Shown one piece after another: positions 5,850-25,141 of a stretch of DNA of 37,707 nt (the stretch's first letter is position 1; each line of letters starts with the position of its first letter). A program made the translations under genes and the position numbers. Under the pieces are notes generated by a model. The model was not told the DNA's origin, did not search any database, and saw only the letters and a program-made list of their open reading frames with translations. The stretch is from Frankia sp. AgB32 (lineage in GTDB: Bacteria; Actinomycetota; Actinomycetes; Frankiales; Frankiaceae): assembly GCF_023243045.1 (NCBI RefSeq), contig NZ_JALKFX010000089.1:1-37707 (forward strand), given 5' to 3'.

Positions 5850-5869
5850 ATTTCATGACGTGATGAATT
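5850..5869. promoter_or_regulatory. Putative TetR-type operator, PKS promoter, site 2
   Basis: ATTTCATGACGTGATGAATT, itself 16/20 palindromic and 15/20 identical to the site at 25106-25125. It overlaps site 1 with a 16-bp offset, the same spacing seen upstream of both other tandem promoters. Confidence 0.55.
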
Positions 5870-5885
5870 CTACGATCGTTGAATT
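5866..5885. promoter_or_regulatory. Putative TetR-type operator, PKS promoter, site 1
   Basis: AATTCTACGATCGTTGAATT, a 20-bp palindrome with one mismatched pair. It is the most symmetrical copy of an element found at six promoters of this cluster and lies on the spacer and -10 box of the PKS promoter. Confidence 0.7.
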
Positions 5886-5894
5886 AGATGTCAA
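5867..5894 (-). promoter_or_regulatory. PKS promoter (-35 TTGACA, -10 TAGAAT)
   Basis: Read on the minus strand, TTGACA (5894-5889) and TAGAAT (5872-5867) are separated by 16 bp, close to the vegetative sigma consensus. Predicted transcription start is about 5860, giving a leader of about 40 bases. The operator at 5866-5885 covers the spacer and -10 box, which fits repression. Confidence 0.65.
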
Positions 5895-6000
5895 ACGGTG
5901 AGGAGGGACGGCCGGCGCCCGCCGGAGTCGGCCCGGCAGGACGCCGCACGGCACCGCGCCGCCGCTCGGGACGGCACGACCTGGGACCTGGCTGCCACGG

Positions 6001-6025
6001 CATGGGACGTCGGGCATGGGACGTC
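6001..6025. repeat. Short direct repeat
   Basis: CATGGGACGTC occurs at 6001-6011 and again at 6015-6025, in the non-coding stretch between the PKS promoter and the 3' end of the TetR gene. No function is apparent. Confidence 0.5.
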
Positions 6026-6115
6026 ACGGCATCGCGCCGGCACCGGCGGCGGATGTCCGAGTCTTACGGCCGCGGTCGTGCCGCGGCGTTCACCTTCGCG
6101 GGAGCCCGGCCCCGG

Positions 6116-6823
6116 TCAGCCCGACTCGGCGGTGAGCTGGCCCGTGACGTAGTACTGCACGACCGGGCCCACCCGGCGCACGATCTCCTCCGGGGGGAGC
6201 TGGCACAGCGGCTCGACCTGCACGATGTAGCGCAGCATGGCCAGCCCGACGAGCTGCGAACCGACGAGGGCCGCCCGGGTGTCGTCGTCGATGATCTGCG
6301 GTGACTTCCCCAGCACCCGGCCGAGGATCTCGCCGCTGACGAACTCCCGCAGCAGCTGGCCCGACTCCTCGTGGCTCACCGCCGAGCGCAGGACGCCGAG
6401 CAGGGGTCGACCGGTGGTGGGGTTCTCCCACAGCTGGAGAAAAAGTCGAACCACCTGTTCGCCGGCGTTGTCGGACTCGACCTCGGTGCTCGCCATTTCC
6501 GCCTCGACAACGTCGAGCACCTGGCGGATCGCGGCTGAGAAGACCCCCTGTTTCGAGACAAAAAAATGGTGCACGAGGGCCGGGTCGACGCGCGCCTCGC
6601 GCGCTATGCCACGAATTGTGGCGCCAGCGTATCCCCGCTCCGCGAACTGGTTGCGCGCAGCATCGAGGATCGCCCGTCGGCTGCCGCTGTCACCGGCGCG
6701 TCGGCCGGTCCGACCGGACTGGGCGGAGTGACGCTTGGAAAAGGAATCGGCCGATGCGGCACGATCCGCGCGCGGCGCGGCGGGGGGGCGCGAAGCCTCC
6801 TCATCACCCGGGACACGGGCCAC
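6116..6823 (-). CDS. TetR-family transcriptional regulator 1 (candidate pathway repressor)
   Basis: 235 residues, GTG start at 6823. The first 45 residues are a polar, basic, low-complexity extension. The TetR helix-turn-helix spans about 50-96 (AILDAARNQFAERGYAGATI, then a recognition helix ending LVHHFFVSKQGVF). The rest is helical and resembles TetR C-terminal ligand domains that carry ENPTTGRPLLGVLRSA-type segments. It sits beside the PKS promoter, which has two operator copies, so it is the best candidate for the regulator that binds the 20-bp element throughout the cluster. Its own leader has only the left half-site AAGTCATC (6841-6848) inside a 5-3-5 inverted repeat, so autoregulation is uncertain. 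The Shine-Dalgarno is weak and a start nearer the HTH cannot be excluded. Confidence 0.9.
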   Translation of the reverse strand: MARVPGDEEASRPPAAPRADRAASADSFSKRHSAQSGRTGRRAGDSGSRRAILDAARNQFAERGYAGATIRGIAREARVDPALVHHFFVSKQGVFSAAIRQVLDVVEAEMASTEVESDNAGEQVVRLFLQLWENPTTGRPLLGVLRSAVSHEESGQLLREFVSGEILGRVLGKSPQIIDDDTRAALVGSQLVGLAMLRYIVQVEPLCQLPPEEIVRRVGPVVQYYVTGQLTAESG

Positions 6824-6841
6824 AGTCGCTCACTCTCACCA

Positions 6842-7423: not shown

Positions 7424-8275
7424 ATGCGGATCGTGAGCGAAATCGAGTTCGCCCGGGTCGACGGTCACTCCCTGCGGCTCGACCTTCATCTGCCGGACGA
7501 GCGCCCGTTGCCACCACCACTGGTGATTTGGATACATGGTGGCGCCTGGTGCTCAGGAAGCAAGGAAATCGATGAGGGAACGTATGACACCTATATCGCC
7601 AAGGTGGTGGCGCAGGGTCTCGCGGTCGCCAGTGTCGAGTATCGACTGAGCCAACAGGCGGTCTATCCGGCCCAGATCCACGACGTCAAGGGTGCGGTGC
7701 GCTGGCTGCGGGCGCACGCCGACGAGATCGGCGTCGACGGCGAGCGTATCGGGGCCCTGGGAGAATCGGCCGGCGGCCACCTGAGCGCCCTGCTCGGTAC
7801 CTCGGGAAACGCGCCGGAAATCGAGGGCTCGATCGGCGGGAACACCGAGTACTCCAGCGCCGTGCAGGCCGCCGTGGCGGTGGCCTGCCACAGCGACCTG
7901 CTGGCCGGGCAGGCTCAGCTGGAACGCCGGCCGGACCGGATCCGGGAGATCGATACTCCGGACTCCTTCGAGTCGCGGCTGATGGGTTTCCCAATCCAGC
8001 AGCGGCCGGAACTGACCCGACTGGCAAATCCGATCACCTTCGTCGGCGCGGACTGTCCGCCGTTCCTCATCATTCACGGCGACGAGGACACGGCGGTGCC
8101 GTGGGAGCAGAGCGCGATGCTCGCCGCCGCGGTCCGGGGCGCGGGCGCGGAGGCGGTGTTCCTGACCGTCAACGGCGCCGACCATTTCAGCCCGCACCTT
8201 CGCGGGACGGCGACGACGAGCGCGATGGCCGCCTTCCTGGCCGAGCATCTGCTCCGTGCGCCGGTCTCGGCCTGA
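7424..8275 (+). CDS. Alpha/beta hydrolase (BD-FAE-like esterase)
   Basis: 283 residues. An HGGAW oxyanion motif lies near residue 38, the nucleophile is Ser115 in GESAGG, the acid is probably the Asp of HGDEDTAV, and the catalytic His is in ADHFSPH near the C-terminus. The fold and motifs match carboxylesterases of the feruloyl-esterase/kynurenine-formamidase-like group. No signal peptide, so cytoplasmic. It lies between the TetR gene and the starter-unit operon. No other thioesterase-like protein is visible in the cluster part of the window, so a role in product release or tailoring is possible, but nothing in the sequence shows its substrate. Confidence 0.85.
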   Translation: MRIVSEIEFARVDGHSLRLDLHLPDERPLPPPLVIWIHGGAWCSGSKEIDEGTYDTYIAKVVAQGLAVASVEYRLSQQAVYPAQIHDVKGAVRWLRAHADEIGVDGERIGALGESAGGHLSALLGTSGNAPEIEGSIGGNTEYSSAVQAAVAVACHSDLLAGQAQLERRPDRIREIDTPDSFESRLMGFPIQQRPELTRLANPITFVGADCPPFLIIHGDEDTAVPWEQSAMLAAAVRGAGAEAVFLTVNGADHFSPHLRGTATTSAMAAFLAEHLLRAPVSA

Positions 8276-9229
8276 GTGACCGTCCCCGCCGGTGCCAGCT
8301 GTCGGCGCCCGGGCACTGACGCCAGACCGTTTCCGGCGTCGACCGGCACGGACATCGGGTCGCCGCCGGGAGCGGATGGCGCCCCAGGGGCCCGGGCCGC
8401 GGGCGGGCGGTGCGGCCGGGGTGTCGAGCCCGGGCCCTCGGGGCGGGCCGGTCCGCGGGGTCGCGGTGGAAGGCATGGGCGGCGGTTGGGTGCGGGCTGA
8501 GCCGCGTTGACGGCACCGCCATCCGGCGGTGCGACCCGCGCGGCGACTTGTCGGAAGGGCGACAGGCCGGCCGGTCCATGGAAAACGGCAGGTAAACATC
8601 CGCGACTCGGGGCCGGCCGCGCCGGCCATATCGGGGGGGCCGCCCATGTTGCCTGCTAGGCGGCACCGGTCGGGGCCGGCTGGGGTAGTGACCGACCGAC
8701 CGAAACAGGTGGATCGCTCGGCGCGACCTACATGACTGGGATCTGGGTCACCTTTCCGGGTGGCCTGAAGCCCCGCCACCTAAGCTCGGAGTAGTTGAGT
8801 GAGCGCATGGGGTGATAATCAGGCTCCGGTCCGTGACGAGCCCCAATCAGATAGCGCTTGCGCCGGGCGGCACCGCTTGTACGCTATCCGTATGTGGTTG
8901 CCCACCAAACGCGTGCATCGTTCTGGCGCGGTTTGGTGTGTCACTTGTCGCAGGGTGATGATCGATCGCCCAGTCATGATACCGGCGGCGGTGAACGGGC
9001 AGATCTCCGCCGCGGGTCGACCAGGTATTACTTCGGCCTCGTCCGCGCTGTGGTGCGATGCCAGACCCTGATCCCCGTCGGAAGTCCTGGCGTCTCTTCA
9101 TGTACTGCCCGCCGCGGTCGCGTGAGGAAGCCGGCAAGCTGGTTGCGCGAGAAACCACATCGCCATCGCGAATAGCCGGTCTTCGGGGAAGTCGATGCGC
9201 GGCCTTACGACGGTACGGAGTCGAGGTCG
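8276..9229. other. Non-coding or decayed stretch
   Basis: About 950 bases with no frame that has convincing coding content. GC drops noticeably from about 8,770 to 9,230 compared with the flanks, which may mark foreign or decayed sequence. No transposase or recombinase fragment could be recognised. Confidence 0.5.
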
Positions 9230-9487
9230 ATGAACGCACAGCAGGGGCGGGGACTGAACTCGCTCGCAGCCTATTCGGGGAGCTCCGCCCAGACGGCCTG
9301 TCGGGCTGTCCACTTCTTCGGTGAGACGCCTTATCACCCGCTGCGTGAAGCCGCCCAGTATCTCGAACAACTTGACCGCGACGGCAGCAGCCGCACCCGA
9401 ATGCTCTACCTCCACCAGGAGTTCTCCTGCGCTGATCGGGGCAGCGATCTCGCCTGGCGGGTGACCCTGGTGCTTCAGGTCTCCTGA
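9230..9487 (+). CDS. Small protein A, unknown function (paralogue of small protein B)
   Basis: 85 residues, ATG start; an in-frame TAG lies 54 bases upstream and no earlier start codon intervenes. GAGG four bases before the ATG is a weak ribosome binding site. The family is not recognised. The C-terminal 60 residues align with the protein at 21174-21470: a shared VHF, then AAxYL helix residues, then an ending (A/P)LWRVTLV or LAWRVTLV. The N-terminal 25 residues are Ser/Gly/Ala-rich and not conserved. No signal peptide or membrane segment. It sits just upstream of the starter-unit operon promoter. The codon pattern is reasonable but less GC3-biased than its neighbours. Could be a partner or regulator protein of the pathway; function unknown. 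Confidence 0.6.
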   Translation: MNAQQGRGLNSLAAYSGSSAQTACRAVHFFGETPYHPLREAAQYLEQLDRDGSSRTRMLYLHQEFSCADRGSDLAWRVTLVLQVS

Positions 9488-9880: not shown

Positions 9881-9900
9881 ATGTCATCGGGTGTTGAAAT
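9881..9900. promoter_or_regulatory. Putative TetR-type operator, starter-unit operon
   Basis: ATGTCATCGGGTGTTGAAAT matches the 21655-21674 copy at 14/20 positions and keeps the invariant A..TC and GA..T. It is the most degenerate of the nine sites and lies just downstream of the predicted transcription start. Confidence 0.45.
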
Positions 9901-9950: not shown

Positions 9951-11096
9951 GTGCACTTCGACCTGACTCCCCACCAGCGCGACCGGATCGACCGCCTGGC
10001 CGGCGAGATCCGCCACCGGCTCGGGACGCCGCAGGAGGCGTCCCGCCCCGCCGGCCCCTTCGACCCAGACGAATGGCGCATCGCGGCCGAGCTTGGGCTG
10101 ACCGGGCTCTGCCTGCCCGCCGCATCGGACGGCGGCGGGCTGGGCGCCCTGGACACCGCCCTCGCGCTGCAGACGTTCACGCGGTTGGGCGGTGACACGG
10201 GCCTGGCGTTCGCGGTCGCCGCCCACCTGCTCGCTTGCGCCGTTCCCGTCCGCGACTTCGCCCAGGACGAGGTCCGCCACCGCCTGCTGTCCGATCTCGC
10301 CGCCGGCCGGGCGGTCGCGGCGAACGCGATGACCGAGGAGGAGGCCGGCTCGGACGTCGGGCACCTCGCCATGCGGGCCCGGCGCGACGGCGACCACTAC
10401 GTCCTCGACGGCGAGAAGTCGTTCGCCAGCAACGCGCCGGCCGCCGACCTGATCGTCACCTACGCGACCACCGACCCCCGCGCGGGTTTCCTCGGCCTCA
10501 GCGCGTTCGTCGTCCCGACCACCCTCGCCGGCGTCACCCGATCCACCCCGTTCGACAAGATGGGTCTCAACGCCTGCCCGGCCGGCCGGGTGGCGTTCGA
10601 CGGCTGCCGCGTCCCCGTCGCGTACCGACTGGGGGACGAGGGCCAAGGCGCCGCGATCTTCCAACACTCCATGGCCTGGGAACGGGCCTGCCTGCCCGCG
10701 ATCTACCTGGGCCGGATGGAGCGCCAGCTCGACCGGTGCGTCACGCACGCCCGCAAGCGGAGCCAGTTCGGCCAGGCGATCGGCAGGTTCCAGGCGGTCT
10801 CCCATCGGATCGTCCGGATGAAGGAGCGGCTCGCCGCGGCGCGACTGCTGCTCTACCGAGCCTGCTGGCTGCTCGACGAGGGACGCGGCTCCGCCGAGGC
10901 GGCCGCCATCGCGAAGATCGTCACGTCCGAGGCCGCCGTCGCGAACAGCCTGGCGGCCATCGAGATCTTCGGAGGTGCCGGCTACCTCGCCGAGCACGGC
11001 GTCGAGCAGGACCTGCGGGACGCCGTCCCCAGCACGATCTTCTCCGGCAGCACGGATATCCAGCGCGAGCTCGTCGCCCGGGAGGTCGGACTGTGA
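9951..11096 (+). CDS. Prolyl-carrier-protein dehydrogenase (acyl-CoA dehydrogenase family, PltE-like)
   Basis: 381 residues, GTG start with GGAG eight bases upstream. Acyl-CoA dehydrogenase fold: N-terminal helical domain, a beta domain (NAMTEEEAGSDVGH flavin-contact segment near residue 125), and a C-terminal helical domain ending GGAGYLAEHG and STDIQRELVAREVG. In the short-chain dehydrogenases the catalytic Glu sits in IYEGT; here that stretch is IFSGST, so it is lost. Glu244 in a WERAC context lies where, as I recall, prolyl-PCP oxidases of the PltE/PigA/RedW group have theirs. Expected reaction: FAD-dependent four-electron oxidation of L-prolyl-S-PCP to pyrrolyl-2-carboxyl-S-PCP. First gene of the operon; its stop overlaps the GTG of the adenylation gene. 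Confidence 0.9.
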   Translation: MHFDLTPHQRDRIDRLAGEIRHRLGTPQEASRPAGPFDPDEWRIAAELGLTGLCLPAASDGGGLGALDTALALQTFTRLGGDTGLAFAVAAHLLACAVPVRDFAQDEVRHRLLSDLAAGRAVAANAMTEEEAGSDVGHLAMRARRDGDHYVLDGEKSFASNAPAADLIVTYATTDPRAGFLGLSAFVVPTTLAGVTRSTPFDKMGLNACPAGRVAFDGCRVPVAYRLGDEGQGAAIFQHSMAWERACLPAIYLGRMERQLDRCVTHARKRSQFGQAIGRFQAVSHRIVRMKERLAAARLLLYRACWLLDEGRGSAEAAAIAKIVTSEAAVANSLAAIEIFGGAGYLAEHGVEQDLRDAVPSTIFSGSTDIQRELVAREVGL

Positions 11097-12628
11097 CTGT
11101 CCTGCACGACTACCTGCGTCAGGGCGCGGCGCGCCGGCCGGACGCTCCCGCCGTCGCCGGGCCCGACGGACGTCTCACCTACGGTGAACTCGACCGGGCA
11201 GCCGACGCCCTCGCCGCCGATCTGCGCGCGGTCGGGGTCGGCCGGGGCGACCGGGTGGTCATCTGGTCGCACAAGACGACCCGCGTCATCGCCGCGTTCC
11301 AGGCGGTGCTGCGCCTGGGCGCCGTCTACGTCCCGCTCGACGAGCAGACGCCAGCCGAGCGGGCGGCCCTGGTCGCCCGCGACTGCGGGGCGCGGGCGGT
11401 CGCCACGACGCCGGAGCGGAGCGCCCTGCTGCGCGACCGGCTGGCGCCCACCTGCCCGACGCTCGACCTGCGGGCCCGCGCGGCGGACGGGGCCGCCCCC
11501 GCGACCGCGCCCGAGAGCGACCAGACGGGACCGGACGACCTCGCCTACATCCTCTACACCTCGGGCTCCACCGGGGTCCCCAAAGGCGTGTCGATCAGGC
11601 ATCGCGACGCGCGGGCGTTCGTCGACTGGGCGGCGGAGGTGCTCTCGGCCGGCCCGGACGACCGGTTCGCCAACCACGCCCCGCTCACGTTCGACCTGTC
11701 GGTGCTCGACATCTACGCGGCCTTCGCGGTCGGGGCCTCCGTCCACCTCGTGCCGGCCGAGCTGGCCTTCTCACCGACGCAGCTGACCGAGTTCATCCGC
11801 GGCAGCGCCATCACGGTCTGGTACTCGGTGCCATCCGCGATCATGCTGATGATGCGGGCGGGCGGCCTGTTGACGCGGGTTCCGCCGCCGGCCCTGCGGG
11901 CGGTGCTGTTCGCCGGCGAGCCGTTCCCGATCGCCCCGCTGCGGGAGCTGGCGGCGTGGACACCGGCCCGGCTGCTCAATCTTTACGGCCCGACCGAGAC
12001 CAACGTCTGCACCTTCCACGAGGTGCGCGCGGACGACCTCGCCCGTGACGTGCCGGTCCCGATCGGCCGGGCGGCGTCGGGTGACCGGGTCTGGGCCGAG
12101 AGCCCCGACGGGGGCGTCGTCCGGCCGGGGGAGGAGGGGGAACTCGTCGTCGAGGGACCCACCGTCATGGCCGGGTACTGGGGGCGCCCGTCGCACGAGG
12201 GCCCGTACCGCACCGGGGACATCGTGCGCCTGCGGCCCGACGGCGGCTTCGACTACGTCGGCCGGCGCGACCACATGGTCAAGATCCGCGGTCATCGGAT
12301 TGAGCTGGGGGAGGTCGAGGCGGCCCTGGCCGCGCATCCCGGCATCTACCAGGCGGCCGTCGTCGCCGGCGGGCAGGGCGCCGAGGCCCAGCTGCTCGCG
12401 TTCGCCGTCCCCCGGGCGGGGCACGACCCGGGCCCGCTGGAGCTGCGGGGACACATCGCCGCCCGCCTGCCCCGGTACATGATCCCGGACGAGATCCACC
12501 TCGTGGAGAGCCTGCCCCGCAACGACAACGGCAAGGTCGACCGGCGGCGGCTCGCCCGCGAGCGCCCGGTCGCCGCGGTCGCCGGGCCGGCCCGACCCGC
12601 CGCGGCCGGCCGGGAGGCGACGCCATGA
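11093..12628 (+). CDS. L-prolyl-[carrier protein] ligase (stand-alone adenylation domain, PltF-like)
   Basis: 511 residues. The GTG at 11093 overlaps the previous stop (GTGA), the usual mark of translational coupling; the frame stays open far upstream, but that part is an out-of-frame reading of the dehydrogenase. Adenylation motifs: YTSGSTGVPKG from residue 155, NLYGPTETN, YRTGD, VKIRGHRIELGEVE, and the catalytic Lys in NDNGKVDRR near the C-terminus. The 511-residue length and absence of a fused carrier domain fit PltF/RedM/PigI-type proline activators. Expected role: activates L-proline with ATP and loads it on the carrier protein at 13329. The Ala/Pro-rich C-terminal tail has no known function. 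Confidence 0.92.
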   Translation: MTVLHDYLRQGAARRPDAPAVAGPDGRLTYGELDRAADALAADLRAVGVGRGDRVVIWSHKTTRVIAAFQAVLRLGAVYVPLDEQTPAERAALVARDCGARAVATTPERSALLRDRLAPTCPTLDLRARAADGAAPATAPESDQTGPDDLAYILYTSGSTGVPKGVSIRHRDARAFVDWAAEVLSAGPDDRFANHAPLTFDLSVLDIYAAFAVGASVHLVPAELAFSPTQLTEFIRGSAITVWYSVPSAIMLMMRAGGLLTRVPPPALRAVLFAGEPFPIAPLRELAAWTPARLLNLYGPTETNVCTFHEVRADDLARDVPVPIGRAASGDRVWAESPDGGVVRPGEEGELVVEGPTVMAGYWGRPSHEGPYRTGDIVRLRPDGGFDYVGRRDHMVKIRGHRIELGEVEAALAAHPGIYQAAVVAGGQGAEAQLLAFAVPRAGHDPGPLELRGHIAARLPRYMIPDEIHLVESLPRNDNGKVDRRRLARERPVAAVAGPARPAAAGREATP

Positions 12629-13320
12629 GCCGCCCCGCCCTGGTCGCCCCACCACCCGCCTGGCGAGCGGGCGCGGCCAGCCTGCGCGACGTCCCGGGTC
12701 TGCTGCGGGACCTGCGCCGGACACGGTCCCTGCGGGACCTGCGCGGGCGGCTGGGGCACCCCCCGGCGGGGCAGCGCATGCGGCTGCGCGCGGCGACGAT
12801 CCGGCCGTCGGGGGACGTGGACGCCTTCCGCTCGATGATGTCCCTGTTCCCGGCGCCCGTCTCGGTGGTGACGGCGCTCGACGACCATGGCCGGCCGCGC
12901 GGCCTGACGTGCAGCGCGGTGTGCAGCCTGTCGATGGATCCGCCGCTGCTGCTCGCCTGCGTCAACCGGCGCAACCGCAGCCTGGAGGCGATCCGGCGCA
13001 GCGGCGGCTTCGTGGTGAACCTGCTGCGGGCCGAACAGCACGCCGTGTCCGACACGTTCGCGTCGGCCTCGCCGAACAAGTTCGACGGGGTCGGCTGGGA
13101 GCCCAGCCCCGTCTCGGGCCTGCCGGTGCTGGCCGACGCGGCCGTCTCGATCGACTGCCACCTCCACGCCGAGGTCTTCGCCGGCACCCACACCATCGTC
13201 ATCGGTCTCGTGCGCCGCAGCGCCGGGGCCGAGGCCGACCCGCTCGTCTACTGGCGTCGGCGGTACGGGACCTGGAGCGGTGCCCCGACCGGCGTGACCA
13301 CCGATCAACAACCCGCCTAG
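12625..13320 (+). CDS. Flavin reductase (NAD(P)H:flavin oxidoreductase domain)
   Basis: 231 residues; the ATGA overlap with the upstream stop marks coupling. About 60 Arg/Leu-rich residues precede the flavin-reductase-like FMN-binding domain, which begins at FRSMMSLFPAPVSVVTA and includes GLTCSAVCSLSMDPPLLLACVN, FVVNLL and GTHTIVIGLV. Such small reductases supply free FADH2 to flavin-dependent halogenases, and its place between the adenylation and carrier genes in a cluster with two intact halogenases supports that role. An internal ATG at 12778 could be the true start if the N-terminal extension is not translated, but the overlap favours 12625. Confidence 0.9.
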   Translation: MSRPALVAPPPAWRAGAASLRDVPGLLRDLRRTRSLRDLRGRLGHPPAGQRMRLRAATIRPSGDVDAFRSMMSLFPAPVSVVTALDDHGRPRGLTCSAVCSLSMDPPLLLACVNRRNRSLEAIRRSGGFVVNLLRAEQHAVSDTFASASPNKFDGVGWEPSPVSGLPVLADAAVSIDCHLHAEVFAGTHTIVIGLVRRSAGAEADPLVYWRRRYGTWSGAPTGVTTDQQPA

Positions 13321-13328: not shown

Positions 13329-13598
13329 GTGTCACAGGACCGGAACGTCTCCGAGGACATCCTCGTCTTCATCCAGAAGAACTTTCTCGACGGCGACCCG
13401 CGCGGCGAGCTGACGCTGGACAGCCCGCTGCTGGAATGGGGCATTCTCACCTCGCTCAACACCGCCACGCTGCTCGGCTACATCCGCGGCGAGCTCGGCA
13501 TCGCCGTCCCCGCGATCCGGGTCACCGGCCGGGATTTCCACAGCGTGCGGACCATTGCCCGGCTGGTGGACGAGGTCGGCGCCGGCTCCACCGTCTAG
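13329..13598 (+). CDS. Stand-alone peptidyl carrier protein (PltL-like)
   Basis: 89 residues, too short and shifted to be confused with its neighbours. Four-helix carrier protein pattern: SEDILVFIQKNFL at the start, then SPLLEWGILTSLNTATLLGYI, where Ser42 is the predicted phosphopantetheine attachment site, then RTIARLVDEV in the last helix. The usual Asp before the Ser (DSL) is Thr (TSL). Expected role: carries proline, pyrrole and chlorinated pyrrole as thioesters through the dehydrogenase and halogenase before transfer to the PKS. Located eight bases after the flavin reductase and 116 bases before the halogenase. Confidence 0.9.
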   Translation: MSQDRNVSEDILVFIQKNFLDGDPRGELTLDSPLLEWGILTSLNTATLLGYIRGELGIAVPAIRVTGRDFHSVRTIARLVDEVGAGSTV

Positions 13599-13714: not shown

Positions 13715-15064
13715 ATGGAGCCCGATTTCGACGTGAGCATCATCGGCGGCGGGCCCGCGGGCTCCACGGCCGCGGCCTACCTCGTCCAGGCCGGTCTGTC
13801 GGTCGGCGTCTTCGAGAGCGAGACGTTTCCCCGTGAGCACGTGGGGGAGTCGCTCGTTCCGGCCACGACCCCGGTGCTGCTGCAGACGGGCGCGATGCCG
13901 AAGGTCGAGGCGGCCGGATTCCCCAAGAAGTACGGAGCGGCCTGGACGTCGGCCGAGTCGCGCAACGTCCCGCACAACGGGTTCAGTGGCCTGCTGCATG
14001 ACTTCCGGGCAGCCGAGATCCAGTTCAAGGAGCGCGACCAGGCCGGGGTCGACCGGGAGTACACCTTCCACGTCGACCGAGGGAGGTTCGACAAGATCCT
14101 GCTCGACCACGCCCGCGACGAGGGCGCCACGGTCTACGAGAACGCCCGGGTGCAGCAGGTGGACCTCGACCGCGAGGACGGCCTGGTGCTGCTGACGGGC
14201 CGGCGCGACGGCCACCCGTTCGAGGCGTCGTCCCGGATGGTGGTCGACGCGTCGGGGCGGCACACGATGCTGGGCCGGCAGCTGAAGGTCAAGGTGCCCG
14301 ACCCGGTGTTCAACCAGTACGCGCTGCACACCTGGTTCGAGGGCCTGGACCGCCGGGCGCTGGCCAGCGATCCGGAGCAGACCGACTACATCTACATCCA
14401 CTTCCTGCCGATCCAGGACACGTGGGTGTGGCAGATTCCCATCACCGACACGGTGACCAGCGTCGGCGTGGTGACGCAGAAGGCGCGGTTCACGGCGGCG
14501 AACGCCGACCGGGACCAGTTCTTCTGGGACTGTATCTCCTCCCGGCCGGACCTGCTGGAAGCCCTCAAGCAGGCCGATCGGATTCGCGATTTCAAGGCCG
14601 AGGGCGATTACAGCTACGCCATGCGCCAGATCTGCGGCGACCGGTTCCTCATGATCGGCGATGCCGCGCGTTTCGTCGACCCCATCTTCTCCAGCGGGGT
14701 GAGCGTGGCGCTGAACAGCGCCCGCATCGCGGCCATGGACATCATCGCCGCCCACGCCGCCGGTGACTACCGGCGGGAGCGGTTCGGCGCGTACGAGGAG
14801 GCGCTGCGGCGGGGAGTCCGCAACTGGTACGAGTTCATTTCCATCTACTACCGGCTCAACATTCTCTTCACCGCGTTCGTGCAGGACCCGCGTTACCGGC
14901 TCGACGTGCTGAAGATGCTGCAGGGCGACGTCTACGACGACGAGGAGCCGGCCGCGCTGAGCGCGATGCGCGAGATCGTCTCGGCTGTCGAGAACGATCC
15001 CGGCCATCTGTGGTACCCGTACCTGGGAACCCTGCGCGCGCCCTCGGCCGCGCCGGCCTTCTGA
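13715..15064 (+). CDS. FAD-dependent carrier-protein halogenase (PltA-like)
   Basis: 449 residues, the length I recall for PltA. ATG start with AAGGA six bases upstream. The FAD-binding GGGPAGS lies at 11-17, GESLVP near residue 50, the halogenase signature WVWQIP at 237-242, and FVDPIFSSGV after the GDAAR flavin motif. Together these mark the subgroup acting on carrier-bound pyrroles rather than free tryptophan. Expected reaction: one or two chlorinations of pyrrolyl-S-PCP using FADH2, O2 and chloride. Last gene of the starter-unit operon and convergent with halogenase 2, with a hairpin between the two stops. The number of chlorines cannot be read from sequence. Confidence 0.94.
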   Translation: MEPDFDVSIIGGGPAGSTAAAYLVQAGLSVGVFESETFPREHVGESLVPATTPVLLQTGAMPKVEAAGFPKKYGAAWTSAESRNVPHNGFSGLLHDFRAAEIQFKERDQAGVDREYTFHVDRGRFDKILLDHARDEGATVYENARVQQVDLDREDGLVLLTGRRDGHPFEASSRMVVDASGRHTMLGRQLKVKVPDPVFNQYALHTWFEGLDRRALASDPEQTDYIYIHFLPIQDTWVWQIPITDTVTSVGVVTQKARFTAANADRDQFFWDCISSRPDLLEALKQADRIRDFKAEGDYSYAMRQICGDRFLMIGDAARFVDPIFSSGVSVALNSARIAAMDIIAAHAAGDYRRERFGAYEEALRRGVRNWYEFISIYYRLNILFTAFVQDPRYRLDVLKMLQGDVYDDEEPAALSAMREIVSAVENDPGHLWYPYLGTLRAPSAAPAF

Positions 15065-15110: not shown

Positions 15111-16853
15111 CTACCAGCCGGTGTCGGCGCGGAAGGGCCGTCCGAGCACGGGCAGCCCGGCGACGGCGTGCTTCAGTTCCGCGCCGAAGGCGAACTCGCC
15201 GCGGGCCAGCCGGAGCCGGATGACCTGCGTGATCCCGTCGTAGAACAGGTCGGCCACCTCGGACGAGGGGCTGCGGCGCGACCAGCGCAGCACCCGGGCG
15301 ACGGTGGGGCCCGAGGCGTGGATGGTCCGGTGGTGGGGGTCGTGCAGACCCATCGCCCGGGGCAGGAAGTCCGCGTCGTCGAGCAGGGCCATGATGCGCG
15401 CCGCCGCGTCCGCGGGCCGCGTCGTCCCGGCCGCGACCGCCCGGATCTCCTGGCTGGCCCTGGCGTACAGCTCCTGCGTCGGCGGGTGGTCGGGCATCGC
15501 GGCCTGCACCCCGAGGCGTTCGAGGTCGTCGAGCGCCGAGACGTCGCCGGCCAGCCGGTACTTCCCGTAGGCCCGGCCGATCACGAAGATCGCCAGTCGC
15601 TGGTGCATCGACCACAGCCGGAACCAGGCGTTCCACAGGTCGTAGTCGGAGAACGCGGTGAACGAGTTCGCGACCAGGTCGTCGTTGAAGTCGAGCAGCC
15701 CCTGCTCGAGCTTCTCGACCAGGGCGAACCGCTCCACCGAGAAGTCGTCGTCGCGCAGCGCGTCCAGCAGCCGCCACGCCAGCGCGTTGATGACGTCGAA
15801 CGTGTTCGACAGGCCGCGGGAGAAAAGGGGGTCGATGAATCCGGCGGCGTGCGACATGAGGCACCAGCGGTCGCCGATGGTCTGCCGCGACGAGTACTGC
15901 AGGCGGCCGGTCGAGACCCATTCCCGCACGGGCCGGGCGTTGGTGAACTGCCCGGCGATGCTCGGGAAGTCCGCCACGAAACGGCGGAACTCCTCCTCGG
16001 GGCCGCAGCCGGGATCGGGGTGCACCCGTGGGTCGACGGTGAGCCCGACGCTGACGAGCGGGTTCGTGGCCATCGGGTGGTTGTTGAACGGGATCACCCA
16101 CAGCCACCCGCCCTCGAAGACGTGGTGCAGCGTCCCCTGGTGCCAGCGCCGGTAGTTGCCGTGGGCCTTGCGGGGCACGAGGTCGTCGTAGGGGGTCACG
16201 CCCACCATGTGGGTGAACATGGACCGCGAGTGGTGGCGCAGCCGGCTCGGCTCCTCCCGCAGGCCGAACTTCTGTGCGAGCGGGGAGCGGAAGCCGCTGG
16301 CGTCGACGACGTAGCGGGTGCGCCAGGTCTCGCCGTTCGCGCCGGTGACGGTGGCGCCGTAGTCGTCGAAGTCGACGTCGGTGACCCTGACCTGCTGGCG
16401 GATCCGCGCGCCGTACTTGACCGCCACCGTCACCAGCCAGGCGTCGACGTCCTGGCGGAACAGGTGGCTGTCGGTGTTGGCGATCTTCGGGGTGACGTTC
16501 TCGTTGTACTCGGCGGTGTTCTGGTGCTCGCCCCGGCGGTGGTAGAGAAAGCCGAAGTTGCGCTTGATGCCGCTGGTCGGGCCGATTTTCGACTGCACGC
16601 TCTCGAAGGTGCCGAGCGCCTTGAGTTCTGGCACGTCGTACCGTTCGGCCATCAGCCGCGCCATGATCGACGTGTACGGAATCGTCGACTCTCCGACGGC
16701 GAACCGCGGATGGGTGCCCGCGTCGATCATCAGAACGTTGGCGCCGCCGCGGGCGAGCACAGCCGCCAGGACCGATCCCGCGATGCCGGCGCCGAGGATC
16801 ACGACGTCGTTCGTCTCGACCGAGGGCGCGTCGGGGGGTGGATTGCTGCTCAT
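15111..16853 (-). CDS. FAD-dependent halogenase 2 (phenolic type, PltM/PltD-like)
   Basis: 580 residues, intact. GAGIAG at 21-26 (FAD), GESTIPYT at 54-61, Lys97 in IKRNFGFLYH (position of the catalytic Lys of flavin halogenases), WLWVIP at 250-255 (the WxWxIP signature), and HAAGFIDPLFSRG. The C-terminal 200 residues are helical, as in halogenases acting on free phenols. It aligns end to end without gaps with the degenerate homologue at 23266-24915 over at least residues 20-255. Expected role: chlorinates the phenol ring, or, as the Mpy10/Mpy11 pair in marinopyrrole, takes part in aryl coupling; sequence cannot decide. Transcribed divergently from the monooxygenase through a promoter with two overlapping operators. 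Confidence 0.92.
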   Translation of the reverse strand: MSSNPPPDAPSVETNDVVILGAGIAGSVLAAVLARGGANVLMIDAGTHPRFAVGESTIPYTSIMARLMAERYDVPELKALGTFESVQSKIGPTSGIKRNFGFLYHRRGEHQNTAEYNENVTPKIANTDSHLFRQDVDAWLVTVAVKYGARIRQQVRVTDVDFDDYGATVTGANGETWRTRYVVDASGFRSPLAQKFGLREEPSRLRHHSRSMFTHMVGVTPYDDLVPRKAHGNYRRWHQGTLHHVFEGGWLWVIPFNNHPMATNPLVSVGLTVDPRVHPDPGCGPEEEFRRFVADFPSIAGQFTNARPVREWVSTGRLQYSSRQTIGDRWCLMSHAAGFIDPLFSRGLSNTFDVINALAWRLLDALRDDDFSVERFALVEKLEQGLLDFNDDLVANSFTAFSDYDLWNAWFRLWSMHQRLAIFVIGRAYGKYRLAGDVSALDDLERLGVQAAMPDHPPTQELYARASQEIRAVAAGTTRPADAAARIMALLDDADFLPRAMGLHDPHHRTIHASGPTVARVLRWSRRSPSSEVADLFYDGITQVIRLRLARGEFAFGAELKHAVAGLPVLGRPFRADTGW

Positions 16854-16950: not shown

Positions 16951-16996
16951 CTTGCGGTGAGTGAAAAAGCCTTGCATCGCAGGCATTTTCCCGGTA

Positions 16997-17016: not shown

Positions 17017-17042
17017 CTTGGGTCGACGTGTGGGAGGCACCC

Positions 17043-18680
17043 GTGAGCGCCAGAACCAAGCGTGAGGTCGTCATCATCGGGGCGGGTCCGGGCGGGCTGC
17101 ACCTGGCCACGGAGCTGGGTCTCGCCGGTGTTCGCGTCACGGTGCTCGAGCGCCGCGCGCGGCCGGCGACCATGTCCCGGGCGGTCGGGCTGCACGCGCG
17201 GTCGCTGGAGCTGCTGGCCATGCGGGGAATGGCGGACGAGTTCCTGGCCCGGGCCAACCCCGTCGGCCATTTCCGGATGACGATCGGCGCCACGCGCATC
17301 CAGTTCCGCCGGCTGCCCACCCGCTTCCCCAACGTGTACATCTGCCCGCAGCACGTCACCGAGGAGCTGTTGGAGAACCGCGCCCGCGAACTGGGGGTCG
17401 ACATCCGGCGTGGAGTCGAGGTGCTCGGCGTGCACCAGGACGGCGACGGGGCGACCGTGCGGTGGCGCCCGACCGGCCCGGACGTACCCCGTCCCGGCGC
17501 CCCGCGGCGGGAAGCCGAGGACTCCGCCGGCGCCGCGTCGCTGGGCGGCGGGCCGGCGGAGCAGTGGCTGCGCGCGGACTACGTCGTCGGGTGCGACGGG
17601 CCCACCAGCGTGGTCCGCGCGAGCGCCGGCATCGACTTCGTCACCGACGTCTACCCGTACAAGGTGCTGTTCGCGGACCTGCGCCTGCGGCACCCACCCG
17701 CCGACGGCGCACTGATCCAGGTCGGACGGGCCGGGCTCGGCGTGGCGATCGACTTCGGTGACGGCCGGTGGCGGGTGGGGGCGATGACCCGCGAGGAGCA
17801 GCGGCCGGCGAGCGAGCCGGCCACCCTCACCGAGATCGGCGCGGCGCTGCGCCGCATCTTCGGCCGCGACCTGGGTGCCTTCGACCCGCAGTGGGTGTCA
17901 CGGGCCCGGTTCCGCAAGGGGGGCGCGAGCACGTACCGCAACGGTCGCGTCCTCATCCTGGGCGACGCCGCCCACGTCCAGTCGCCGATCGGCGCCCAGG
18001 GCCTGAACCTGGCGCTGCACGACGCGGCCAACCTGGGCTGGAAGCTCGCCGCCGTGGTGCGCGGCGGCGTGTCACCGGACCTGCTCGACACCTTCGAGCA
18101 GGAGCGCCGGCCGTGGGTGACCCGCGTGCTGCACGTCACCGACCGCGTCTTCCGGTTGGCGATGTCACCCCTGCCGCCGGTGCGCGCGGCGCGACGTGTG
18201 GTCGTGCCGGCGCTGACCTCGATCCCGGCGGTCAACGCCGAGATCGCCGGCAACCTCACGGGCCTGGCGGTGCGCTATCCGCCGCGTGGCGGCGGCCATG
18301 CCGCCGTCGTCGGCGGGCGCCTGCCCGACGTCACGATCCGCTCGGCGGACGGTGCGACCGTCTCCCTGTTCGAGCTGCTGCGCGAGGGCCGGTTCGTCCT
18401 GGTGGACCAGGGCGACGGCGCGCTGGCCTCGGGCTGCGGGCCCTGGTCCGACCGGCTCGTGACGGTCCGCGGGCGGATCGTCGACAGCCCCGGACTCGAC
18501 GGCTACCGGGGGCTGCTGTCCAGGCCCGACGGCTACTGCGCCTGGGCTGGGGATCACCTTCCGCCGCTGCGCGAGCAGCTGCACCGCTGGTGCGGAGTCG
18601 CCCGCCTGCCGAGGTCCGTCCCCGCGGCCGCTACGGTGCCGATGTCGGCACCGGCGCCGGTGGCGGAGTCGGTGCCCTGA
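17043..18680 (+). CDS. FAD-dependent aromatic monooxygenase (phenol-hydroxylase type)
   Basis: 545 residues. The GTG at 17043 has GGGAGG five bases upstream, which favours it over the in-frame GTG at 17028. Class A flavin monooxygenase: GAGPGG at 13-18 for FAD, a CDG segment near residue 180 (VVGCDGPTSVVRASAG), and Gly307-Asp308 in LGDAAHVQSPIGAQGLN. The C-terminal 130 residues resemble the thioredoxin-like domain of PheA/TfdB/MhpA-type enzymes. Expected role: hydroxylates the aromatic ring of the product or an intermediate using NAD(P)H and O2. Divergent from halogenase 2 under shared operators, so co-expressed with it. Regiochemistry cannot be predicted. Confidence 0.9.
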   Translation: MSARTKREVVIIGAGPGGLHLATELGLAGVRVTVLERRARPATMSRAVGLHARSLELLAMRGMADEFLARANPVGHFRMTIGATRIQFRRLPTRFPNVYICPQHVTEELLENRARELGVDIRRGVEVLGVHQDGDGATVRWRPTGPDVPRPGAPRREAEDSAGAASLGGGPAEQWLRADYVVGCDGPTSVVRASAGIDFVTDVYPYKVLFADLRLRHPPADGALIQVGRAGLGVAIDFGDGRWRVGAMTREEQRPASEPATLTEIGAALRRIFGRDLGAFDPQWVSRARFRKGGASTYRNGRVLILGDAAHVQSPIGAQGLNLALHDAANLGWKLAAVVRGGVSPDLLDTFEQERRPWVTRVLHVTDRVFRLAMSPLPPVRAARRVVVPALTSIPAVNAEIAGNLTGLAVRYPPRGGGHAAVVGGRLPDVTIRSADGATVSLFELLREGRFVLVDQGDGALASGCGPWSDRLVTVRGRIVDSPGLDGYRGLLSRPDGYCAWAGDHLPPLREQLHRWCGVARLPRSVPAAATVPMSAPAPVAESVP

Positions 18681-19321: not shown

Positions 19322-19322
19322 C

Positions 19323-21618: not shown

Positions 21619-21646
21619 TTGACGCCACCTGTCCGCGTCGTACCCT
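21619..21646 (+). promoter_or_regulatory. Carboxyltransferase promoter (-35 TTGACG, -10 TACCCT)
   Basis: TTGACG (21619-21624) and TACCCT (21641-21646) with a 16-bp spacer. The predicted start near 21653 is directly followed by the operator. Confidence 0.5.
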
Positions 21647-21688: not shown

Positions 21689-23179
21689 ATGACCCAGGCC
21701 GCTTCGGAGCTGGTCACACCGGACCGGGTCGAGGTCCCGCCCCGGCTCGCGCCGCCGGGCAGCACCCGGCCGCGGCCGGCCGTGGCCGAGGGCAGGGACG
21801 GCGCCGCCGAGCGGGTCGCGGCCCTGGTCGACCCCGGCTCGCTGAGCCTGATCGGGGCAGGTGGCGGCGGGGGTGTGGCGTCCGGGCGGGGCCGGGTGGG
21901 GGGACTGCCGGTCGAGGTGTTCGCGACCGAGCCGGGCCGGCGCGGGGGAGCCCTGAGCTTCGACGACTGCGCGCGCATCGGCGCCACCATCGACCGTGCC
22001 CGCCTGGCCGACGTGCCCGTCGTCGGGATCTGGCACTCGGGCGGGGCCGACCTGCGGGAGGGGATGGCCGCCCTCGACGGCGTCAGCAGGATCTTCCGTG
22101 CCAGCGTCGCGGCCTCCGGCCGGGTTCCCCAGCTGTCCCTGGTCGTCGGGCCGGCCGCCGGCGGCGCCGCGTACGGGCCGGCGCTGACCGACCTCGTCGT
22201 CATGACCGGCGAGGCCCGCGTGTTCGTCACCGGTCCGGAGGTGGTCCGCCGGGTCACCGGGGAGGCCACGACGGCGGAGGACCTGGGCGGCCCCCGCGTC
22301 CACGGGCGTTCCAGCGGGGTCGCCCACGTGATCGCCGAGGGACGGGCGGCCGGTGTCGAGGCCACCCGGCGGCTGGTCGGCCTGCTCGGTGACCCGGGCC
22401 GCTTCCACCCGGCCGGGGCGCGCCCGACCGCCGACGCCGCCACCGCCGATCCCGGCCGGCTCCTGCCGGCGTCCCCCCGCCGCGCCTACGACGTGCGGCC
22501 GTTGGTCGACGCGATCCTCGACGGTCCGGCCACCGCGCTGCAGGGCGGCTGGGCCGCCAACGTCCATACCGCGCTGGGCCGCCTGGCCGGCCGCACGATC
22601 GGGGTGGTGGCCAACAACCCGCTGCGCCGCGGCGGCTGTCTCGACGCCGCCGCCGGCGACAAGGCGGCCCGTTTCGTGCGGATGTGCGACGCGTTCGGCA
22701 TCCCGCTGCTGGTCCTCGTCGACGTGCCCGGCTACCTGCCCGGGGTGGCGCAGGAACGCGACGGGGTCGTCCGCCGCGGCGCGAAGCTGCTGCACGCCTT
22801 CGCCGGCGCGACCGTCCCCCGCATCACCATCATCACGCGCAAGGCGTTCGGCGGTGCCTACGTGGCGATGAACAGCAAGGGGCTCGGGGCCACTGCAGTG
22901 TACGCGTGGCCGACGGCCGAGGTCGGCATCATGAACCCCGAGTCGGCGGTCGACATCCTGCACCGGCGTGACCTGGCGGCGGCGGCCGAGGCGGACCGGC
23001 CGGCCCTGCGCGGCCAGCTCGCCGAGGGCTATGCCCGCGAGGCCACCGGCGTCGCCCGCGCCGTGGACGTGGGCATCGTCGACGCCGAGATCGCGCCGGC
23101 CGAGACCCGGGCTGTGCTGATAGCCGGATTCGCCGGCGCCGGCTCGGCCCGCGGCAGCGAGCGCAACGTGCCGTTGTAA
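21689..23179 (+). CDS. Acyl-CoA carboxylase carboxyltransferase (beta) subunit
   Basis: 496 residues, ATG start after a GGGG-type ribosome binding site. The crotonase-fold carboxyltransferase halves are both visible: the N-terminal half with HSGGADLREG and VGPAAGGAAYGPALTD, and the C-terminal half with LVLVDVPGYLPGVAQE, ITIITRKAFGGAYVAMNSKGLGA and WPTAEVGIMNPESAVDIL. These match AccD/PccB subunits that transfer carboxyl from biotin to acetyl- or propionyl-CoA. No biotin carboxylase or biotin carrier subunit is in the window, so it must borrow a genomic alpha subunit. Together with the malonyl-like AT motif of the PKS and a cluster-type operator, it probably supplies malonyl-CoA for the pathway. 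Slightly shorter than usual PccB at the N-terminus. Confidence 0.93.
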   Translation: MTQAASELVTPDRVEVPPRLAPPGSTRPRPAVAEGRDGAAERVAALVDPGSLSLIGAGGGGGVASGRGRVGGLPVEVFATEPGRRGGALSFDDCARIGATIDRARLADVPVVGIWHSGGADLREGMAALDGVSRIFRASVAASGRVPQLSLVVGPAAGGAAYGPALTDLVVMTGEARVFVTGPEVVRRVTGEATTAEDLGGPRVHGRSSGVAHVIAEGRAAGVEATRRLVGLLGDPGRFHPAGARPTADAATADPGRLLPASPRRAYDVRPLVDAILDGPATALQGGWAANVHTALGRLAGRTIGVVANNPLRRGGCLDAAAGDKAARFVRMCDAFGIPLLVLVDVPGYLPGVAQERDGVVRRGAKLLHAFAGATVPRITIITRKAFGGAYVAMNSKGLGATAVYAWPTAEVGIMNPESAVDILHRRDLAAAAEADRPALRGQLAEGYAREATGVARAVDVGIVDAEIAPAETRAVLIAGFAGAGSARGSERNVPL

Positions 23180-23202
23180 GGGCCCGTTCCCGGACGACCA
23201 GA

Positions 23203-23237
23203 CCGGGCGGGACGGGCTCGTCGCCCTTCCCGCCCGG
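23203..23237. terminator. Strong hairpin terminator between convergent genes
   Basis: CCGGGCGGGA (23203-23212) pairs perfectly with TCCCGCCCGG (23228-23237); after one mismatch four further pairs close a 5-base loop. Lies between the carboxyltransferase stop (23179) and the facing stop at 23266, so it can serve both directions. Confidence 0.7.
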
Positions 23238-23265
23238 CCGTGGGATGTCCGGCGCGGCGCGCGGC

Positions 23266-24915
23266 TCAGTGGACCACCGACGGCGGGACGTTCGTGAGGT
23301 TTTCCCTGGTCAGCATCGCCCGGAACTCGGGCGGGGCGACCGTCTTCGACCAGGCCAGCATGCGCAGCCGCTTGGACCGGGTGAAGTGGTAGTAGCGGTC
23401 GTCCGGGTCGGCGAACCGGTACAGCGGTGGCACGAACGGGGCGGCGTCCAGCGCGGCGAAGACGCGCCCCGCGGCGGTCGCGGGGGTCAGCCGGCGAGCC
23501 TCGACCTCCTCGAACAGCGCGAAGACGTCGTCGAGGAGGTCCGGCAGCCCGTTCGGGAGCGCGAACCAGTAGGGGCCGTCGTAGAAGCGTTCGACGTCGG
23601 ACCAGTCGCCGCCGTGCAGGCAGCGGTTGCGGGTCGTCTTCAGGGACAGCGCGGCCAGGATCGACCACAGCAGCCAGACCCGCGAGAAGGCGTTCCACAG
23701 GGCGAAGTCGTGGGTGGCCGTCCGGGCGGCGGCGAGGATCCGGTCGTTGAACGCGATCAGTTCGGTCTGGAAGCCGGCGACGGGGGCGAACCGTTCGGGT
23801 GACCAGTCGTCGCGGCGGGCCGCGTCCAGCAGGGCCGGGGCGAGCGCGTGCACCATCTCGGCCCCCATCGTCACGTCCCGCGACAGGAACAGGTCGTTGC
23901 GGCTCGCCGACCGTTCGAACAGGAAGTACCGCGGGCCCGCCGGCACGGGGACGGTACGTTGCCACCGCTCGTCCGCGGCCCAGGGCTGGACCCTGACCGC
24001 CTCGGCGAAGCATCGGCGCAGCGCGGGGAAACGATCGACGAGGCGGGCGAAGGCCACGTCGGGGTCCTTCGGCAGATCGGCGAACAGTTCGGGGTCGACG
24101 CCCGCCGTCACCCCGCACAGCGGTGTCGCCGCCTCGGCGTGGTTGTCGAAGTGGACGACCTGGAGCCACCCGCCGGGGAACAGGTGGCTGATCGTCCCGG
24201 TCGACCAGGCGGTGGCCCGCTCGTACGCCGCCATCGGGACGCAGTCCTCGAACGGCCGCACGCCGCTCATGTGGGTCGACAGGACGCGGGACCGGGTGCG
24301 CAGGCGCGCCACCGGGTCGGGGCCGCCGAGGTGGCGGACCAGCGGCGAGTCGGGGCCGGCGGCGTCGACCACATAGCGGGCGCGGTAGGTCTCGCCGTGG
24401 GCGGTGACGATCGAGACCCCGTCGGCGCGCGGCGCGATGTCGGTCGCCTTCGGCCGCAGGCGGATAGTCCGTGCTCCGTAGGAGCGGGCGATCGCCGCCG
24501 CGTGCCGGTCGGCGGTCAGTCGGTACGGATGCCATTCGGAGTGCTCGCCCGGCACGTTGAACTGGACGGCCTGGTTCGGGTCCTGCTCCCGTCCGGGCAC
24601 GTGGTAGAGGAAGCCCAGGCTGCGCTTCACCCCGCCGCCGCGGCGGATCTCCTCGGGCAGGTCGCGCGTGAGCCCGAAGGCCGCGATCTCGGGGACGTCG
24701 AACCGCCGCGCCAGGGTGAAGAAGACCTCCGCGGTGTAGGGGACGGTCGTCTCCCCGGCGGCGGCCAGCGGATCGGCGTCGGCGTCCACCAGCAGCACCC
24801 GCAACCCATGGCGGGCGAGGACCGCGCCGAGCAGGGCGGACGCGAGGTGGACGCCGACGATCGCGACGTCGTGGATCTCGTCGGGATCAGCGAGGCGCCG
24901 CCCGTCGTCTTCCAT
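23266..24915 (-). CDS. Degenerate FAD halogenase homologue (PltD-like, probably not a halogenase)
   Basis: 549 residues from the ATG at 24915, with GGAG six bases upstream. Aligns without gaps to halogenase 2 over the N-terminal 255 residues; numbering coincides at Lys97 and Trp250, which supports this start. The FAD motif GAGIAG is GVHLAS (21-26), WLWVIP is WLQVVH (250-255), and the HAAGFIDPLFSRG flavin loop is ERSASRNDLFLSRD. GETTVPYT and Lys97 (VKRSLGFLYH) remain. The frame is intact with clean codon use, so it is maintained, not a pseudogene. As I recall, pyoluteorin PltD is likewise a halogenase homologue without a usable flavin site. A GTG at 25089 would add 58 Pro-rich residues and sits closer to the promoter. 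Function unknown. Confidence 0.88.
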   Translation of the reverse strand: MEDDGRRLADPDEIHDVAIVGVHLASALLGAVLARHGLRVLLVDADADPLAAAGETTVPYTAEVFFTLARRFDVPEIAAFGLTRDLPEEIRRGGGVKRSLGFLYHVPGREQDPNQAVQFNVPGEHSEWHPYRLTADRHAAAIARSYGARTIRLRPKATDIAPRADGVSIVTAHGETYRARYVVDAAGPDSPLVRHLGGPDPVARLRTRSRVLSTHMSGVRPFEDCVPMAAYERATAWSTGTISHLFPGGWLQVVHFDNHAEAATPLCGVTAGVDPELFADLPKDPDVAFARLVDRFPALRRCFAEAVRVQPWAADERWQRTVPVPAGPRYFLFERSASRNDLFLSRDVTMGAEMVHALAPALLDAARRDDWSPERFAPVAGFQTELIAFNDRILAAARTATHDFALWNAFSRVWLLWSILAALSLKTTRNRCLHGGDWSDVERFYDGPYWFALPNGLPDLLDDVFALFEEVEARRLTPATAAGRVFAALDAAPFVPPLYRFADPDDRYYHFTRSKRLRMLAWSKTVAPPEFRAMLTRENLTNVPPSVVH

Positions 24916-25105
24916 GGACCTCTCCCCTCGGACGCGCGCCGGCGGGGTGCCGGGCGGCGGTTCTCGTGACTGGCCGGCCCCGGCGGAGGCGGGCTGGCCC
25001 GGGACACCTGGTGGCGGGGCGGTTGGGACGCGCCTCAGAACGTCGCGGTTCGGGCTGGGCGGCGCGGACGCGTCGTGCTCCTCGACCACGCGGGCCTCAC
25101 CCCAG

Positions 25106-25125
25106 ATGTCATCACTCGATGAAGT
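25106..25125. promoter_or_regulatory. Putative TetR-type operator, degenerate halogenase gene, site 1
   Basis: ATGTCATCACTCGATGAAGT, 16/20 identical to the site at 21655-21674. Lies at and just downstream of the -10 box. Confidence 0.55.
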
Positions 25126-25141
25126 CTACAGACGATGAGTT
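25122..25141. promoter_or_regulatory. Putative TetR-type operator, degenerate halogenase gene, site 2
   Basis: AAGTCTACAGACGATGAGTT, 14/20 identical to the PKS site, offset 16 bp from site 1. Covers the -10 box and spacer. Confidence 0.5.

Follow-up and report, generated by a model that had tools for sequence, protein, structure and literature searches.

In the pyoluteorin cluster of Pseudomonas protegens Pf-5, the TetR-family protein PltZ does not repress the biosynthetic genes directly: its targets are its own gene and a transporter operon, it is released by the product, and it recognises a 16-bp motif, TNNAATTNNAATTNNA (PMC8305169). PhlF and PhlH of Pseudomonas fluorescens 2P24 are TetR repressors that act on an antibiotic cluster and respond to small phenolic or pyrrole products (PMC11878095). 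A 37,707-nt contig of Frankia sp. AgB32 (NZ_JALKFX010000089.1; identical with contig C239 of a 274-contig genome of 6.68 Mb, hereafter the window) was analysed here. It encodes a prolyl-carrier dehydrogenase, an adenylating ligase, a carrier protein, flavin halogenases and a type I polyketide synthase (PKS), the gene set of a halogenated pyrrole-polyketide cluster of the pyrrolomycin type, and ten copies of a 20-bp inverted repeat lie at six of its promoters. Judging from sequence comparisons, one TetR-family repressor encoded within the cluster, TetR1 (6116-6823), very likely has all ten elements as its operators and would control all six promoters.

The locus resembles the PltZ system in having a TetR-family regulator inside a chlorinated pyrrole-polyketide cluster, but differs in that the elements lie on biosynthetic promoters and not on those of the TetR gene or the transporter; by inspection of the elements only, none of the ten fits the PltZ motif (PMC8305169). 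PhlF and PhlH are alike by description, but belong to another cluster and another phylum (PMC11878095). The predicted TetR1 regulon probably works like that of an ordinary pathway-specific TetR repressor, in a new place. In Wenjunlia (Streptomyces) vitaminophila DSM 41686 (locus L066), a pyrrolomycin producer, a TetR1 relative (49% identity) stands beside PKS, carrier protein and halogenase genes with sites of 14.1 and 17.4 bits; these sites are weaker than those of the window and the gene order is different. S. vitaminophilus is named for the pyr cluster in the accessible part of PMC12670696, and no description of its pyr-cluster regulator was found in the literature searched, as far as the texts were available. 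Nor was a published description of the 20-bp operator found in that literature (titles and abstract openings).

Nine 20-bp elements had been listed in an earlier note on this sequence. A 20-mer keeping A at position 1, TC at 4-5, GA at 16-17 and T at 20 was recovered at every one of the nine left ends, and these six letters taken alone match at 11 places in the window: the nine sites, 9831 and 14534. A symmetric weight matrix built from the nine sites, which themselves score 25.1-34.9 bits, added a tenth element at 9831 (AAGTCACCGATTGACGAATT, 24.0 bits; next-best window position, 10.2 bits). The total is accordingly ten rather than nine, with two elements (9831 and 9881) at the starter-unit operon. 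The elements are given below with their scores by a ten-site matrix.

5850..5869, operator element 1, PKS promoter, 3′ of the -10 box, 29.6 bits
5866..5885, operator element 2, PKS promoter, contains the -10 TAGAAT (5867-5872, minus strand), 16 bp from element 1, 35.0 bits
9831..9850, operator element 3, new relative to the earlier list, spans the -35 TTGACG (9841-9846) of the starter-unit operon, 27.0 bits (24.0 when left out)
9881..9900, operator element 4, directly 3′ of the starter-operon -10 (9864-9869), 26.8 bits
16915..16934, operator element 5, contains the halogenase 2 -10 TAGACT (16916-16921, minus strand), 28.8 bits
16931..16950, operator element 6, contains the halogenase 2 -35 TTGACT (16940-16945, minus strand), 24.9 bits
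16997..17016, operator element 7, monooxygenase promoter, -10 TAAATT (16995-17000) or TAGAGT (17010-17015), 30.5 bits
21655..21674, operator element 8, just past the carboxyltransferase -10 TACCCT (21641-21646), 35.3 bits
25106..25125, operator element 9, 3′ of the -10 of the halogenase-like gene, 27.3 bits
25122..25141, operator element 10, contains the -10 TAGACT (25123-25128, minus strand) of the halogenase-like gene, 24.8 bits

All ten elements lie on or beside -35/-10 boxes, and the assignment of elements to six promoters held for each of them. Five promoters have a -35/-10 pair with a spacing of 16-18 bp: those of the PKS (TTGACA-16-TAGAAT), the starter-unit operon (TTGACG-17-TAGCGT), halogenase 2 (TTGACT-18-TAGACT), the carboxyltransferase (TTGACG-16-TACCCT) and the halogenase-like gene (TTGACC-16-TAGACT). 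The sixth, that of the monooxygenase, had been credited with a clear -10 box only; it does have a pair, though a weaker one (TTGCAT-17-TAAATT, or the alternative -10 TAGAGT at 17010). The -10 hexamer coincides with element positions 2-7 on the minus strand at the PKS, halogenase 2 and halogenase-like promoters, which accounts for the TCTAC half-site variant in the elements at 5866, 16915 and 25122.

In the preferred reading, a TetR1 dimer would read the 20-bp inverted repeat AATTCAWCRNNYGWTGAATT, in which several positions are variable, through a half-site of about TCAWCR. Six units, each with one or two sites, would be under TetR1: the PKS, the starter-unit operon, halogenase 2, the monooxygenase, the carboxyltransferase and the halogenase-like gene. 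The sites fall on the -35, on the -10 or just past it, positions that fit occlusion of RNA polymerase, which bound TetR1 would keep off the promoter. Release of TetR1 would come from a small molecule, with the halogenated pyrrole product or an intermediate as the likeliest candidates, and the six units would be turned on together.

The elements overlap promoter boxes, and some of their letters (TAGAMT) are also those of the -10 hexamer, as would be so if AT-rich promoter DNA in a GC-rich genome had mimicked a motif by chance. Such an origin is rejected by the matrix, Markov and genome scans and by recurrence of the element in other genomes, and its probability is negligible. Leave-one-out scores of the ten elements are 21.4-34.4 bits, with a chance expectation of 0.0028 positions of at least 20 bits in the window, and 100 first-order Markov sequences gave a mean of 0.15 matches of at least 14 bits per window and a best match of 20.6 bits. 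Every element lies outside called genes, the non-coding share of the window by the same gene calls being 16%. Equally good matches scattered through the genome, the outcome that the earlier note had set against its own proposal, were not seen: the genome-wide search, made by pattern matching followed by matrix scoring of selected matches, found exact matches to ANNTCWWSRNNYSWWGANNT at nine positions, all of them the nine sites first listed, with element 9831 two mismatches away by inspection. With up to two mismatches there were 164 matches per strand versus 155 in the backwards control. All 15 one-mismatch matches outside the window, and three two-mismatch matches among those listed, were scored with the matrix; the highest scores among these were 20.8 bits at C274:74236, which falls within an open frame, and 19.7 bits at C133:13368, and there may be other fair matches beyond them. 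The pattern is that of a pathway-specific repressor, with operators at several biosynthetic units and hardly elsewhere: six units, an exact consensus confined to the cluster and two matches of about 20 bits outside it.

The element was followed in other genomes through the neighbouring genes. Halogenase 2 matched at E ≤ 1e-80 in 32 of 393 genomes of the class, its own included, and the best foreign match (G287, probably a Streptomyces) lies in an orthologous cluster, with identities of 55% for the PKS, 47% for TetR1, 58% for the prolyl dehydrogenase, 52% for the ligase, 70% for halogenase 1, 60% for halogenase 2, 44% for the monooxygenase and 55.5% for the halogenase-like protein. This cluster has a 23.6-bit site 5′ of the PKS and two sites 16 bp apart (15.4 and 23.2 bits) 5′ of the monooxygenase; around its tetR and halogenase-like genes nothing rose above noise (11.0, 8.2 and 6.4 bits). 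Across that 6.1-Mb genome the consensus is matched exactly only once, at one of these cluster sites, and with one mismatch allowed there were 6 matches, two of them in the cluster, versus 4 in the control. An alignment of the window and G287 halogenase 1 proteins was then used as query, and the best 80 of 141 named loci were scanned. Sites of at least 14 bits numbered 60, in 23 of the 80 loci, versus one in reversed controls, and those of at least 18 bits 38, in 15 loci, versus none; kin loci are not independent, which inflates these counts as well as those from the TetR loci, the spacing sample and the palindrome search below. Sites were present in 9 of 10 loci with a TetR1 match (E ≤ 1e-10), the match of the site-less tenth (L123) having 28% identity only, and in 14 of 70 without one. 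For five of these 14 (L074, L087, L092, L095 and L115), the same contig has a TetR1-like gene, with sites nearby, some 9-16 kb beyond the limits of the fetched stretch, and the L081 genome has one on another contig (L147), close to a PKS and accompanied by sites of 19.1 and 23.6 bits.

TetR1 itself has its two domains above curated cut-offs (PF00440, 52.9 bits versus 24; PF17920, 110.9 bits versus 26.2), and the closest solved structure by sequence is a putative TetR regulator, PDB 2np3 (E 1.7e-34), presumably of locus SCO0857, under which locus name no literature was found. Neither TetR1 (36.6 bits) nor the second TetR protein of the cluster, TetR2 (68.4 bits, N-terminal part only), passes the 150-bit cut-off of the ScbR-type gamma-butyrolactone receptor model NF041196. 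As sole query against named genomes TetR1 found no relative; in a search of the class it matched at E ≤ 1e-38 in 105 of 393 genomes, its own included, and the best 29 loci by E-value besides the window were scanned. A site was found in 15 of the 29 (17 sites in 103 kb; none in controls), G287 among them. Three of the seven order-level relatives (L002, L018-L023), the same-family relatives L018-L020, have site pairs 43-44 bp apart directly 5′ of tetR, the L018 site lying between tetR and a divergent DapB-like gene; the best site in L002 and L021-L023 scores 13.2 bits. L162 and L183, which are not halogenase clusters, have their site at the 5′ end of an ABC-transporter open reading frame (ORF) adjoining tetR.

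A matrix made from the 31 TetR-selected loci (17 distinct sites) ranked exactly the ten elements as the top ten window positions, at 14.9-30.3 bits, with the next at 8.8. A search of these loci for 5+5 gapped palindromes, which uses no letters from the window, placed ATTCA-N8-TGAAT, the core of the window element, first of 15,360 (11 of 31 loci, some of them close kin). The second most enriched palindrome, GTTCA-N12-TGAAC, occurs in 11 of the 31 loci (L178-L206) and is perhaps the operator of a site-less Streptomyces clade. A tree was built from 90 TetR sequences, leaving out matches that span fewer than 140 query residues or start past residue 60 and four duplicate loci. Window TetR1 falls in a set of ten with support of 99/92, all ten near PKS or halogenase genes and nine with sites of at least 14 bits in the fetched neighbourhood. 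Across the tree, the 31 of 90 rows with a site within 700 bp are clustered, requiring 13 changes versus a shuffled mean of 25.9 (0 of 500 shufflings as low). The helix-turn-helix stretch VDxAL[VI]HH[FY]F is present in most of 25 rows viewed, the site-less clade included, so that this stretch alone does not explain the difference in sites.

The other genes of the cluster are as follows.

2..5821, minus strand, modular PKS (Pfam), truncated by the contig end
6116..6823, minus strand, TetR1, predicted repressor of the regulon (Pfam TetR_N and TetR_C_16; co-occurrence with the operator)
9951..11096, plus strand, prolyl-carrier-protein dehydrogenase (PigA/RedW-like), gene 1 of the starter operon (NCBIfam PigA model, 422 bits, under the cut-off of 500)
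11093..12628, plus strand, ligase binding adenosine monophosphate (AMP), probably a prolyl-AMP ligase (Pfam; start chosen by us within ORF 10235-12628)
12625..13320, plus strand, flavin reductase (Pfam)
13335..13598, plus strand, carrier protein (PP-binding, 24.5 bits)
13715..15064, plus strand, halogenase 1, WxWxIP present (Pfam; motif)
15111..16853, minus strand, halogenase 2, WxWxIP present (Pfam; motif)
17028..18680, plus strand, flavin adenine dinucleotide (FAD) monooxygenase (Pfam); the start may alternatively be the in-frame GTG at 17043 behind GGGAGG
21689..23179, plus strand, acyl-coenzyme A (CoA) carboxyltransferase (Pfam)
23266..25089, minus strand, halogenase-like protein without GxGxxG and WxWxIP (Pfam; motif inspection)

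The halogenase-like gene keeps an intact frame despite the loss of both motifs, and the G287 (55.5%) and Kitasatospora (L118, 68%) relatives are without these motifs too; it may be a conserved pseudo-enzyme under the cluster operator rather than a decaying gene. About 1.5 kb (8276-9830) separates the BD-FAE hydrolase gene from the starter operon, and the two ORFs tested between them, 7553-8779 and 8847-9584, have no Pfam match. A cluster edge had been placed near 25,150. The elements do stop there and no recognised biosynthetic gene was found among the scanned ORFs to the right, which makes the edge plausible; the genes for TetR1, the BD-FAE hydrolase and TetR2 with its transporter also lie inside the cluster without elements, so absence of elements is no proof of an edge.

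Several observations weigh against TetR1 as the reader of the elements. No operator was found at its own promoter in the window, where the best match scores 1.2 bits, and autoregulation thus has no sign there. Eight loci (L079, L084, L085, L089, L094, L099, L106 and L110) carry sites with no TetR1-like gene (E ≤ 1e-20) on a contig matching theirs in length, those in their genomes all being on contigs of other lengths (the L079 contig is just 14.7 kb long); they are the chief reason to regard the linkage of TetR1 and operator as not strict. A member of the TetR set of ten, L138/L208, stands beside halogenases and a PKS with no site above 9.2 bits, and a 28-row clade of near TetR1 relatives, Streptomyces where named, has no site within 700 bp; two of its rows, L152 and L185, have sites of 21.1 and 19.8 bits about 1 kb off. 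Sampling shapes the set of ten, whose other nine members are six halogenase-1 loci, G287 (from the halogenase 2 search) and two loci, L138 and L147, from genomes that had been selected by halogenase 1. The window matrix had served to pick the sites from which the TetR-selected one was made, so that test is not wholly independent. A TetR1-like protein (E ≤ 1e-25) is present in all 33 genomes asked; such proteins being common, mere presence proves little. The earlier proposal of one repressor, probably TetR1, is supported by co-occurrence of the TetR1 branch and the operator across genomes, with L138/L208 and the eight loci as departures from it.

Some single observations touch the same sites. 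Upstream of tetR1, at 6841, is a good half-site, AAGTCATCG (13.3 bits), whose second half is unmatched and which is perhaps a decayed autoregulatory site. Four Streptomyces loci have one site in common (L084 18657, L085 18752, L089 19038 and L094 18668; 16.9-19.4 bits), which in L084 lies between divergent AMP-binding and acyl-CoA-dehydrogenase-like ORFs. L099, L106 and L110 have a single site each, of 14.5-16.4 bits.

The bare tetR1 promoter and the eight loci without a TetR1-like gene on their contig would both be compatible with operators of one regulator other than TetR1 and encoded elsewhere, for example in a missing part of the cluster past the contig end, where truncation of the PKS means that cluster genes are indeed missing. 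Such a regulator is unlikely, given that the element also lies near tetR outside halogenase clusters (L162 and L183, and L018 beside the DapB-like gene) and that the motif core was recovered from TetR-selected loci without the window motif. A different function for the sites, with TetR1 or another protein acting through them as an activator at some or all promoters, could draw on their variable position relative to -35 and -10; blocking fits better where the -10 is inside the element (three promoters) or the site is just 3′ of it (two more), and activation is quite improbable.

TetR2 (18700-19278), next to the gene of a major facilitator superfamily (MFS) transporter, is likewise a TetR protein within the cluster and could in principle bind the elements. 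It is only distant kin of TetR1 (31 bits), and the 95 bp that separate it from the MFS gene contain two copies of CATACN10GTATG (19287-19306 and 19323-19342), in the place expected for its own operator. These repeats of other sequence make TetR2 a poor candidate, and it was rejected as a highly improbable binder of the 20-bp elements. The CATACN10GTATG repeats are probably TetR2's own operators, and TetR2, with the MFS promoter TTGACG-18-TAGCCT, probably controls export on its own.

With TetR1 as the preferred repressor, the spacing of the sites was compared across genomes. There are 127 sites of at least 13 bits in the window, G287, the 80 halogenase-1 loci and ten flank loci, and among 52 neighbour gaps of at most 120 bp, in a sample that holds kin loci and a few slightly overlapping stretches, 37 measure exactly 16 bp and 5 measure 40 bp; in L087 four sites follow one another at 16-bp steps. 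Sites 16 bp apart overlap by 4 bp, and since 16 bp is about 1.5 helical turns, two dimers on neighbouring sites would bind almost opposite sides of the DNA, probably cooperatively. In ten more cluster-bearing genomes (about 82 Mb), 32 exact consensus matches were found versus 3 in the control, and 21 of them share a contig with the halogenase locus; G404, G407 and G426, which count against the TetR1 proposal, have no exact match on that contig. An exact copy of the L079 site, AAGTCATCGCCTGTAGAATT, lies on a second contig of the L087 genome (G394:C31:32846), which suggests a second such cluster there. A separate, unrelated palindrome of the form ATCTCTTGRYRYCAAGAKRT repeats at G395:C13:212584, G397:C128:33494 and G404:C41:45301.

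A broader proposal is possible, although doubtful: that these sites belong to a widespread, undescribed control module of halogenated-pyrrole clusters, in which a TetR_C_16 repressor would bind as consecutive dimers on arrays of alternating 8-bp half-sites (as many as four successive 20-bp operators at 16-bp steps). The half-sites would incorporate -10 boxes, array length would tune the strength of repression, and the operators would be usable to find such clusters. Within the window, the predicted TetR1 regulon offers a specific repressor-operator pair that can be put to the test, both in this Frankia halogenated-pyrrole cluster and in several related ones from Streptomyces and other actinomycetes. 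If TetR1 is the repressor, loss of one gene, or the right ligand, should turn on six units at once, and the operator can help tie scattered genes to such clusters.

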